Origin: Candidatus Zipacnadia bacterium
Lineage (GTDB): Bacteria; Armatimonadota; Zipacnadia; Zipacnadales; UBA5352
Direction: 5' to 3'
Length of the DNA stretch: 48,386 nt
Assembly (NCBI GenBank): GCA_029820295.1
Contig: JALGVA010000019.1
Location: 1 to 48,386 of the forward strand
Shown: positions 38,811 through 42,865 of the stretch, in pieces
Numbering within the stretch: the stretch's first letter is position 1
How the letters are laid out: the number at the start of each line of letters is the position of its first letter
Notes under the pieces: generated by a model
Database searches by the model: none
Told to the model about the DNA's origin: nothing
The model's input: the letters and a program-made list of their open reading frames with translations, nothing else
Translations under genes and position numbers: made by a program

Positions 38811-38839
38811 TTGACGGTCGAACAATTGTTCGATATAAT
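38811..38839 (+). promoter_or_regulatory. Near-consensus promoter of the dnaE2 unit
   Basis: -35 TTGACG (38811-38816), a 17-base spacer and a perfect -10 TATAAT (38834-38839). The spacer is almost filled by a palindromic SOS box, so repressor binding would block RNA polymerase directly. Confidence 0.88.
38818..38833. promoter_or_regulatory. LexA (SOS) operator inside the dnaE2 promoter
   Basis: TCGAACAATTGTTCGA is a perfect 16-base palindrome containing CGAAC-N4-GTTCG, the core of the Gram-positive-type LexA box. It lies exactly between the -35 and -10 hexamers and upstream of a translesion polymerase gene, as expected for SOS control. LexA itself is not in the window. Confidence 0.85.
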
Positions 38840-38862
38840 GCCTTCACCACGATGTTCTGCGA

Positions 38863-39211: not shown

Positions 39212-42200
39212 ATGACCGCCTTCACGCACCTGCATACTCACAGCAACTTCTCGTTCTACGACGGTGCGGCGCCGGTCGAAGCCCTGGCGCGGGCGGCGCG
39301 CGATGCCGGCATGTCCGCCCTCGCGCTCACCGACCATGACTCCCTCGCCGGCGCGGTGCGCTTCTTCCAGGCCGCGCTCGCGGCCGGCGTGCGGCCCATC
39401 ATCGGCGTCGAGTTCACCGTCGAGCCGGTGCTGCCCGAACACCTCGAGGACCCGGAGCGCCCCCCGCACCTGCTGCTGCTGGCCGAGGACAACGAGGGCT
39501 ATTCGAACCTGTGCCGGCTGGTCACCGCCGCACGGCTGGGCGAGGCGCGGCGTGAGAGCGCGTTCTCGGCGGCCTACCGGGACGTCGATCGCGACCACCC
39601 GCTGCTCACCCAGGAGAACCTGCGCCGGCACTGCGGCCACCTGATCGCCCTCTCGGCCTGCCGCAAGCGCGGCGAGATCCCGGCACTGCTGGCGCGCAAG
39701 CGCTTCGGCGAGGCGTACGAGGTGGGGGAGCACTATCGCGATCTGTTCGGCTCCGAGCACTTCTTCATCGAGCTGCACAATCACCTGCTGCCGCGCCCGC
39801 ACAACCGCATGCGCCACCGGCTGGGCGACCTCGCCGCGCGCCTGGGGCTGGAGTGCGTGGCGACCAACAACGTGCACTACGTGGACCGCTCGTCGTATCG
39901 CCTGCAGGACGTGATGGTGTGCATGGGCGCGCGCCAGACGGTCGATGAGCCGCACCCCGACCGCCGCCCCAACGCCGAGTTCGCGCTCAAGCCGCCGCAC
40001 GAGATGGCGGAGCTGTTCGCCGACCAGCCCGAGGCCATCGCCAACGCCGCGCGCATCGCCGCGCGCTGCGAGTGGGAGCTGGACCTGGAGAGCTTTCACT
40101 TCCCGGCGTTCGATATGGAGCGGTTGAGGGAGCACTGCGCACGGCGGGCATGGGGGATGGGGGATGGGGGATGGGGGGACGGCGACGACTGTCGTTGTCG
40201 TATGGAGGGGCCGGACCACTGTCCGGCCCGCCGTTCCTGCGATTGGATCACCGAACGACCCATGGGCGAGGGCGCCCGGAAGGTCGCAAGCGACGGGGGG
40301 CGTTGCGCGAACGCCCGTGGCACGGAACGACAAACAGCAACGACAACAGCAGGCGCGGGAGAGATTCGCGCGGCAACGGCATCCGCGTTCGATTATCCGC
40401 CGCCGCATGCGGGCGAAGCCACGCGCGACTACCTCCGCCGTCTGTGCGCGCATGGCGCGCGGCGGCTCTACGGCCACCTCACCGGCGAGGTGCGCGCGCG
40501 TCTCGATCACGAGCTGGCCATCATCGAGGGCAAGGGCCTGTGCGATTACTTCCTGATCGTCTGGGACATCGTCCGCTTCGCCCGCGAGCAGCGCATCCGC
40601 TGCACCGGCCGCGGCTCCGCCGGCGACTCGCTGGTCAGCTACGTGCTGGGCATCACCCACGCCGACCCGCTCGCCAACGACCTGCTGTTCGAGCGCTTCC
40701 TCAACCCCGAGCGGCGCAACATGCCCGATATCGACGTGGACTTCGACACCCGCCGCCGCGATGAGGTCACCAGGTACGTCTACGATACCTACGGCGCCGA
40801 GCACGTCGCCGCGGTGTGCACCGTCAACACCTTCCGCGCCCGGGCGGCGATCCGCGAGATCGGCCACGCCCTGGGCTTCTCCGACGAGGAGATCGGTCGC
40901 ATCGCCTCGCTCTTCCCGCACATCCGCGCCGCCGACATCGGCGAGGCCATGGAGCGCTACCCCGAGCTGCGCGACGCCGCGGTGGACATCGACGACAAAC
41001 GCCTGCTCATCGAGCTGGCTCAGGAGATCTCCGGCTTCCCGCGCCACCTGTCGGTGCATGTGGGCGGACTGCTCCTCGGCGCGCGCCCGCTCACCGAGAT
41101 GGTGCCGCTCGAGCTGGCCTGCAAGGGCATCGTCATCAGCCAGTTCGACAAAGACGATGTGGAGGCGCTGGGGCTGGTGAAGATGGACCTCCTCGGCCTG
41201 CGCATCCACTCCGCTATCGAGGACGCGCTCGATCACATCGAGACCCGCACCGGCGTCCGCCCGGACATCGAGGCCATCCCGCTCGACGATGAACCCTCCT
41301 ATGAGCTGCTGCGCAGCACCCACACCGTCGGCCTGTTCCAGCTCGAGAGCCCCGGCCAGCGCAACCTGCTCGGGCGCACCCAGCCCACGCAGTTCGAGGA
41401 CGTCATCGCCAACATTTCGCTCTTCCGTCCCGGACCGGTGCAGGCGGACATGATCACCCCCTATGTGCTGCGCCGCCACGGGCTGCAGCCGGTCGAGTAC
41501 GCCCACCCCGACCTCGAGCCGATCCTCGCCTCGACCTTCGGCGTGGTCATCTACCAGGAGCAGGTGTTGCGCATCGCCCACGCCATCGCCGGCTTCTCGC
41601 TGGGCGAGGCCGACGTGCTGCGACGCATGATGACCCACGACATCACCCCCGAGGACCTGGAGGAGGTGCAGGAGCGCTTCATGCTGCGCGCGAGCGAGCG
41701 CGGCGTGCGGCCGGACGTCGCGGCCGAGATCTTCGACATGGTGCGGGGCTTTGCCGCCTACGGCTTCAACAAGGCCCACGCGGCCTGCTTCGGCAAGATC
41801 TCCTATCAGACCGCGTGGCTCAAGGCGCACTACCCGGCGGAGTTCCTCGCCGGCATCCTCTCCAGCCAGCCGATGGGCTTTTACCCGCCGCGTACCGTCG
41901 CCGAGGACGCGAAGCGTTTCGGCTGCGCCATCCTGCCGCCCTGCGTCAACCGCAGCGAGGGCCGCTGCACGGTCGAATATGACGCGAACGAGCGCGGTGA
42001 CATCCGCGTCGGCCTGTGGATGGTGCGTGGGCTGCACGGCAGCGCTGAACGCATCGTCGCCGAACGCGAGCGCCATGGGCCGTTCGCCTCGCTCGATGAC
42101 TTCTGCCGCCGCACCTGTGTGCCGCGCCCGGCGGTAGAGAACCTGGTGCTGGCGCGCGCCTTCGAGTTTACCGGCCTGAGCGTGCAGGAGCTGATGTGGC

Positions 42201-42865
42201 GGCTGGGCGCGCTGCCCGATGACGTGGTCGCCGACCGGCGCGGGCGGCGCTGCGGCCCCTCGCTGGCCTATGACGACGTGGACGACCTGGTGCGCCTGCT
42301 GCCCTCGCTCGATCCGATGACCGCGGTGGGGCGCGTCGCCACCGACCTGCACCTGCTCGGGGTGAGCACCACGCGTAATGCCTTCAGCTTCTGGCGCGAG
42401 CGCCTGCGCGAGCTGGGCGTGACGCCCAGCGTGAAGCTGTGGCGGCGCGGGGATCGCGAGCGCGTGCGCGTGGCGGGGATTGTGGTCGCGCGTGCCCGCC
42501 CGCCCACGCGCAGCGGCCGCACCGCCATCTTCATCTCGCTCGAGGACGAGCTGGGGCTGATCGACGTAGCGGTCTTCGAGGAGGCCTACGAGAAGTGCGG
42601 ACGCGCACTGTACACGAGCCCGGTCCTGTGCGTCGAGGGCCGGCTCACGCGCATGGGCAGGCTCGACCTGTCGGTGACCGCCGAACGCGTTATCGGTCTG
42701 GGCTCATGGCAGGACTTCGCGCTCCCGCCTGCGGGTGACTCTCGGGAGGCAGGTCTGCAGCCTGCTGACCACCGGACGCCGGGAAGCGCCACGTACCGCA
42801 ACGAGCAGGTCGTCCGCCAGACGCCCATTCGCGGCGGCGAGGGGCGGCAGATCGCCATGTACTGA
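39212..42865 (+). CDS. dnaE2: SOS-induced DnaE-type error-prone DNA polymerase (DnaE2/ImuC-like)
   Basis: The 1217-residue C-family DNA polymerase probably performs translesion synthesis after DNA damage. It starts with a PHP domain (FTHLHTHSNFSFYDG, ALALTDHDSLAG, IIGVEF). The polymerase core has the catalytic PDIDVDFDTRRRDEV, the GRGSAGDSLVSYVLGI motif, FNKAHAACFGKISYQTAWLKA and AEFLAGILSSQPMGFYPP, which is DnaE2-like. The C-terminus has an OB domain (VAGIVVARARPP, IFISLEDELGLIDVAVFEE, VEGRLTRMGRLDLSV) ending in an odd low-complexity tail. Between PHP and palm (about residues 310-390) there is an in-frame repeat-like insertion. The SOS promoter and small accessory gene upstream support DnaE2 over the replicative DnaE; no second dnaE is in the window for comparison. 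ImuA and ImuB are absent here. Confidence 0.85.
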   Translation: MTAFTHLHTHSNFSFYDGAAPVEALARAARDAGMSALALTDHDSLAGAVRFFQAALAAGVRPIIGVEFTVEPVLPEHLEDPERPPHLLLLAEDNEGYSNLCRLVTAARLGEARRESAFSAAYRDVDRDHPLLTQENLRRHCGHLIALSACRKRGEIPALLARKRFGEAYEVGEHYRDLFGSEHFFIELHNHLLPRPHNRMRHRLGDLAARLGLECVATNNVHYVDRSSYRLQDVMVCMGARQTVDEPHPDRRPNAEFALKPPHEMAELFADQPEAIANAARIAARCEWELDLESFHFPAFDMERLREHCARRAWGMGDGGWGDGDDCRCRMEGPDHCPARRSCDWITERPMGEGARKVASDGGRCANARGTERQTATTTAGAGEIRAATASAFDYPPPHAGEATRDYLRRLCAHGARRLYGHLTGEVRARLDHELAIIEGKGLCDYFLIVWDIVRFAREQRIRCTGRGSAGDSLVSYVLGITHADPLANDLLFERFLNPERRNMPDIDVDFDTRRRDEVTRYVYDTYGAEHVAAVCTVNTFRARAAIREIGHALGFSDEEIGRIASLFPHIRAADIGEAMERYPELRDAAVDIDDKRLLIELAQEISGFPRHLSVHVGGLLLGARPLTEMVPLELACKGIVISQFDKDDVEALGLVKMDLLGLRIHSAIEDALDHIETRTGVRPDIEAIPLDDEPSYELLRSTHTVGLFQLESPGQRNLLGRTQPTQFEDVIANISLFRPGPVQADMITPYVLRRHGLQPVEYAHPDLEPILASTFGVVIYQEQVLRIAHAIAGFSLGEADVLRRMMTHDITPEDLEEVQERFMLRASERGVRPDVAAEIFDMVRGFAAYGFNKAHAACFGKISYQTAWLKAHYPAEFLAGILSSQPMGFYPPRTVAEDAKRFGCAILPPCVNRSEGRCTVEYDANERGDIRVGLWMVRGLHGSAERIVAERERHGPFASLDDFCRRTCVPRPAVENLVLARAFEFTGLSVQELMWRLGALPDDVVADRRGRRCGPSLAYDDVDDLVRLLPSLDPMTAVGRVATDLHLLGVSTTRNAFSFWRERLRELGVTPSVKLWRRGDRERVRVAGIVVARARPPTRSGRTAIFISLEDELGLIDVAVFEEAYEKCGRALYTSPVLCVEGRLTRMGRLDLSVTAERVIGLGSWQDFALPPAGDSREAGLQPADHRTPGSATYRNEQVVRQTPIRGGEGRQIAMY
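40141..40380 (+). repeat. Palindrome-bearing insertion within the dnaE2 coding sequence
   Basis: About 240 bases encode a Gly/Asp/Arg-rich stretch with no counterpart in DnaE proteins as I know them. It opens with GGGCATGGGGGATGG iterations, then carries a perfect hairpin GGGCCGGAC-CACT-GTCCGGCCC (40208-40229) and a second stem GGGCGTT/AACGCCC (40298-40316). The 15-base GGGCATGGGGGATGG recurs after the gene near 42882. The frame stays open. Confidence 0.6.

Follow-up and report, generated by a model that had tools for sequence, protein, structure and literature searches.

A stretch of 48,386 nucleotides of Candidatus Zipacnadia bacterium (Armatimonadota; contig JALGVA010000019.1), hereafter the window, carries a two-gene SOS operon of imuB-C and dnaE2 that very probably constitutes a LexA-repressed translesion unit. 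The pairing of DnaE2 with ImuB-C is known as such; what is new is its range beyond Actinobacteria, in several Armatimonadota families and with a conserved LexA-type switch. The original prediction, made from the DNA letters, had described a palindrome between TTGACG and TATAAT followed by a protein with a WRGRRY motif and a DnaE-type polymerase, and all of these elements lie where it had placed them:

38811-38816, forward strand: -35 hexamer TTGACG, read in the sequence
38818-38833, forward strand: putative LexA operator TCGAACAATTGTTCGA in the promoter spacer, a perfect 16-bp palindrome of the Gram-positive type CGAAC-N4-GTTCG, identified from the sequence and kept in position in relatives
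38834-38839, forward strand: -10 hexamer TATAAT, read in the sequence
38872-39129, forward strand: imuB-C (Pfam DUF6504, PF20114; 5.5e-11), 85 aa
39212-42865, forward strand: dnaE2, 1217 aa, with Pfam PHP, C-family polymerase, HHH and OB matches

The promoter-like site is the only one detected in 38500-43100 and matches at 11 of 12 positions with a spacer of 17 bp, which consists of a G at 38817 and the palindrome, the latter thus filling 16 of the 17 bases. B. subtilis and S. aureus use LexA boxes of this type, CGAACN4GTTCG (PMC9578287), and the operator overlaps the promoter, as in SOS operons of the Gram-positive type. As an indicator of taxonomy the box holds only insofar as it is not the E. 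coli type; beyond that it says little. The genome, a draft of 331 contigs that is 98.6% complete, encodes both RecA and a canonical LexA (G000:C299; TIGR00498, 215 bits), the lexA gene being preceded by a near-match box, CGAACGGGCGTTTG. The concern that the genome might have no lexA is thereby removed, and the presence of the gene together with the operator layout kept in relatives supports the predicted LexA-type SOS control of the unit.

Relatives were searched for DUF6504 and DnaE2, and the matching loci were retrieved and compared. Besides the window, 17 Armatimonadota relatives (families f1, f4, f6 and f7, and genome G016) carry a DUF6504 gene 5' of dnaE2, usually separated from it by less than 400 bp (2.7 kb in G006). 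TTGAC[A/T] followed after 1 nt by the box is found in 14 of the 17, with the box abutting the -10 position or ending 1 nt before it, and the hexamer after the box matches TATAAT at five or all six positions in 12 of these 14, so that the general layout 5' of the pair reads TTGACW-n-TCGAACNNNNGTTCGA-TATAAT. Relatives differ in the flanks of the box and in its central four bases, while its position and sequence are otherwise kept. As the relatives carry an equal layout before an equal gene pair, selection must act on the box. Many of the relatives' genomes are fragmented and are probably metagenome bins; contamination of bins is an unlikely cause of the pattern, because the pair and matching operators are kept across families. 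Contig L097 of G005 was excluded as an independent case, since its small gene is identical and its DnaE2 part all but identical to the window.

This contig (G005:C27) and a second one (G001:C588, L044) are 99-100% identical to the window dnaE2, and both genomes also hold a diverged copy; the two contigs probably reflect cross-binning. At a further locus, G001:C542, dnaE2 is split over several frames. At least two further cases of DUF6504 adjoining dnaE2 (L118 and L128) occur among the matches listed, which are mostly DnaE1 or DnaE3, and in L128, from a Bacillota metagenome-assembled genome, DnaE2 is likewise linked only to ImuB-C. The two-gene pair in Aeromicrobium and Rubrobacter fits the published range within Actinobacteria.

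To judge the box by its frequency, the expected count of the core motif was computed from 109 kb of the genome's sequence (69.5% G+C). The bare 10-base core CGAACN4GTTCG shows no enrichment genome-wide (it occurs at 8 places and the reversed control at 7, with about 5 expected), and its count was for this reason dropped as evidence. The longer TCGAACN4GTTCGATA, of which about 0.003 are expected per genome, has three exact matches, including one within a darT-like gene, and the full layout TTGACNNTCGAACNNNNGTTCGATA with TTGAC in register, expected about 1e-6 times per genome, is found twice, at the dnaE2 operon and before the gene of a Hel308-like helicase. In composition shuffles of upstream regions, which served as a control, a box score of at least 10/12 was reached in 19 of 1150. 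A check for further copies of the box, proposed with the original prediction, returned boxes before the Hel308-like helicase, dinB and lexA genes.

The small protein contains the WRGRRY motif in its 85-aa frame; an alternative start at 38881 (Met4), invariant in relatives, would give 82 aa. When single ImuB sequences are scanned with Pfam DUF6504, the model hits the C-terminal ~75 residues in Paracoccus (2.8e-4) and Acidiphilium (4.9e-5) and, with a weak score, in Agrobacterium; it is silent on the ImuB proteins of Cupriavidus, Rhodanobacter and Manganitrophus. Aligned with hhalign, a profile of the Armatimonadota DUF6504 proteins matches a profile of six ImuB C-termini with a probability of 96.3 and an E-value of 1.6e-9 over 79 columns. 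On account of these profile matches, the protein is by its sequence a stand-alone ImuB-C, a name introduced by Aravind et al. (2013; PMC3765255), that is, an ImuB C-terminal domain encoded by a gene of its own. The description of a small DUF6504-like partner only is therefore right as to the small DUF6504 protein, but not as to a mere partner, since part of ImuB is present. An AlphaFold2 model is all-beta at middling confidence (mean pLDDT 72, from a 4-row alignment), and a fold search of the PDB with this model gave no match at E 0.001; the 2026 survey describes ImuB-C as a beta-barrel of novel fold (PMC12926913). A literature search by the name DUF6504 returned no paper. The genome holds a second stand-alone DUF6504 gene (G000:C12:10256-10525; L036), without LexA box or polymerase neighbour and adjoining a gene that reads like a ketol-acid reductoisomerase; a second copy also occurs in many relatives.

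The polymerase is a DnaE2, as had been predicted: it is a C-family enzyme without an internal clamp-binding motif, encoded alongside a replicative DnaE1 (C238) that is 38% identical to it and carries the internal clamp motif QVSLF. The possibility that it is the sole dnaE of the genome, and hence replicative, does not arise given the separate DnaE1. At the site where DnaE1 has QVSLF, none of the compared DnaE2 sequences has a clamp-binding motif, and two candidates for one in DnaE2, QELMW and, at the C-terminus, QIAMY, were not convincing. The catalytic residues Asp506, Asp508 and Asp659 are kept. The N-terminal part is formed by the following domain:

39227-39784, forward strand: PHP domain of DnaE2 (Pfam match, residues 6-191)

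Compared with the active motif HHDHEHCDH defined in PMC12926913, the PHP metal-ligand pattern (39227-39878) shows one change, Asp to Asn at residue 220, which sits just past the Pfam match; the PHP active site is thus substituted, as in DnaE2 proteins, by a single residue. The DnaE2 of G050 has all nine PHP ligands, and ImuA/ImuB-linked DnaE2 have lost most of them. In a tree of 50 rows built by a quick method, with long branches and without the published DnaE2A/B/X reference sequences, the 16 Armatimonadota rows of the two-gene type form one clade (support 99), located near G050 and Actinobacterial DnaE2 that also stand behind DUF6504, and apart from the ImuA/ImuB-linked clade; the window DnaE2 groups with those of Aeromicrobium, Rubrobacter and Streptomyces (branch support 94, with the same limits of long branches and missing references). 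The DnaE2 tail of family f1 (window 42800-42862) reads RGGE(G/R)RQIA(Y/M)(Y/L) in most members, as opposed to the SRDFR-type end of ImuA/ImuB-linked DnaE2, and is a possible family-specific binding peptide.

Searches of the genome for ImuA and ImuB found neither, in keeping with their absence from the predicted unit. The ImuA model matched only RecA itself, below cut-off, and two kinds of search for Y-family genes across the genome yielded only DinB (C79) and no ImuB or other inactive Y-polymerase. A degenerate Y-polymerase (iPolY), the mark of the DnaE2X type, was accordingly found neither in the operon nor elsewhere in the genome. The DinB has intact catalytic motifs and the clamp motif QLSLF, and its tail RARDAIAERFGRGAITRARL resembles the RecA-NT motif in a visual reading of the sequence rather than a profile test. 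LexA boxes scoring 10-12/12 lie near the dinB start in all genomes with a DinB match in families f1 (7/7) and f4 (4/4).

For the operon we infer induction by damage, binding of ImuB-C to DnaE2 and a mutagenic outcome. Following established SOS biology, LexA in the undamaged cell would occupy the spacer operator of the near-consensus sigma-70 promoter and block RNA polymerase; upon damage, RecA filaments on damaged DNA would bring about self-cleavage of LexA, turning the operon on. DnaE2, which has no counterpart of DnaE1's clamp-binding motif, would then synthesise past lesions with ImuB-C bound, the latter probably docking at the PHP domain, as in models that others have published for ImuB. 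On weaker and speculative ground, the LexA-boxed DinB, with its QLSLF motif and RecA-NT-like tail, might provide the links to clamp and RecA in trans. We tentatively propose, as one of the less probable elements of the scheme, that active, LexA-controlled DinB joins DnaE2 and ImuB-C in this way, which would bring together two error-prone polymerase families in one complex.

Several observations weigh against this reading. Among the 17 relatives, G026 and G016 have no clear promoter layout at the operon. The sequence surrounding recA (G000:C221; L109, L011) contains no LexA box of this type, and recA may be outside LexA control here. A divergent iPolY could have been missed in the draft, so that its absence is not proved. 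Finally, dinB has no LexA box in f6, f7 and G016, though the operon is boxed in most of them. As dinB is unboxed in these genomes, its role in trans would not be general; completion of the mutasome by DinB is possible in the window's family, not as a rule.

The strongest alternative is that the unit is a reduced split-ImuB mutasome: from an ancestral iPolY-ImuB-C-DnaE2 operon the window lineage would have lost iPolY, leaving a working remnant for which DinB takes over the clamp and RecA links. We consider this a real but lesser possibility. Seven Armatimonadota relatives (G011, G018, G020, G045, G049, G050 and G053) have an iPolY directly 5' of ImuB-C-DnaE2; the catalytic acids of these proteins are substituted, yet most retain the clamp and RecA-NT-like motifs. 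LexA boxes precede iPolY in tandem in G018 and G013 and as two weaker copies in G050, and no DinB was found in four of the iPolY genomes (G018, G020, G050, G053), whereas most two-gene genomes have one. In the tree, however, six iPolY-linked rows join a clade that is sister to the ImuA/ImuB-linked type, and only G050 falls near the two-gene clade, at a position that the branching does not settle. A simple loss of iPolY is thus without support from the DnaE2 tree and, as only G050 lies near, separate recruitment is equally possible.

Aravind et al. (2013) proposed that ImuB-C is a sensor of damage or DNA, which would bind damaged DNA and steer any of several repair enzymes; that it acts in this way here, instead of as a DnaE2 subunit, is rather unlikely. 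Stand-alone ImuB-C does occur beside many repair genes (PMC3765255), and the second DUF6504 gene, here and in many relatives, has neither box nor polymerase neighbour. As for the ImuB-C of the operon, its occurrence together with dnaE2 in 17 relatives as well as the window speaks against a sensor, as does the modelled contact of ImuB-C with the PHP domain of DnaE2 in the ImuB setting (PMC12926913). A constitutive operon, with a palindrome that arose by chance or is no LexA site, is very improbable, since, despite the lack of enrichment of the core motif alone, the box is conserved in position and sequence while its central bases and flanks vary, a like layout precedes the Hel308-like helicase, and boxes lie at dinB and lexA.

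Several other loci of the genome carry the box. The helicase gene (G000:C194:99-2769; L108), whose product has a C-terminal winged-helix match of the Trans_reg_C type, has the promoter TTGACT-box-TATACT, resembling that of the dnaE2 operon, and is a candidate for SOS control. A perfect-core box lies closely 5' of a 46-aa frame with one hydrophobic stretch (MEHLLTHITGLDLALGLVLLVVYLWQ...; L002 ~1501-1670, G000:C6:25310), which could encode a small SOS-induced membrane peptide, and a one-mismatch box lies closely 5' of a gene for a three-Cys-motif partner protein (TcmP; L305:351-1518, G000:C44). The box at C2, inside the darT-like coding sequence, was read as chance, and those at C225, C228 and C272 were rejected as operators, all lying within long open frames. 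Within the window, short G/C-rich repeats of 7 and 14 bp occur between genes (39138-39207 and 42882-42956) and inside dnaE2 (40142-40393):

39138-39207, forward strand: 14-bp tandem repeats (GCTACCGGCTAACG) between imuB-C and dnaE2, from the sequence
40142-40393, forward strand: linker between the PHP and polymerase parts of DnaE2 (~residues 311-394), partly 7-bp GGGGATG repeats

Owing to this linker, 109 aa separate residues 300 and 408, compared with 13 in most homologues and 106 in G007.

Aravind et al. (2013; PMC3765255) had noted that solo ImuB-C shares operons with DnaE2, in some cases together with an inactive DinB, and Timinskas and Venclovas (2019; PMC6511836) described split-ImuB operons. 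ImuB-C contacts DnaE2 in AlphaFold models, and its stand-alone form occurs with DnaE2 (PMC12926913, PMC6511836, PMC3765255); DnaE2 linked only to ImuB-C was stated to be confined to Actinobacteria (PMC12926913). The window's DnaE2 is linked only to a stand-alone ImuB-C, the hallmark of DnaE2B. With the domain apart from ImuB, and without ImuA or an inactive Y-polymerase body, the pair offers a minimal natural test of the role of ImuB-C, and its LexA-type switch is conserved in a little-studied phylum, the Armatimonadota. Compared with the ImuA-ImuB-DnaE2 mutasome of Caulobacter and Mycobacterium, the window shares an SOS-controlled DnaE2 and an available ImuB-C domain, but its genome has no detected ImuA and no detected Y-family body of ImuB. 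With the DnaE2X or split-ImuB type (iPolY, ImuB-C, DnaE2; Kyrpidia tusciae; PMC6511836), which occurs in other Armatimonadota, it has in common the order of ImuB-C before DnaE2, whereas iPolY was not detected and the DnaE2 falls in another clade. The DnaE2-[ImuB-C] system, the fifth DnaE2B group (e.g. Arthrobacter alpinus; PMC12926913), likewise has a stand-alone ImuB-C gene adjoining dnaE2 in an operon without ImuA, ImuB or PolY, and the window DnaE2 groups near the Actinobacterial two-gene DnaE2 in our tree, which lacks published references. The window differs from this system in its host, which belongs to the Armatimonadota and not the Actinobacteria, in a promoter-embedded LexA box kept across families, in a nearly intact PHP site and in the LexA-boxed DinB of its family.

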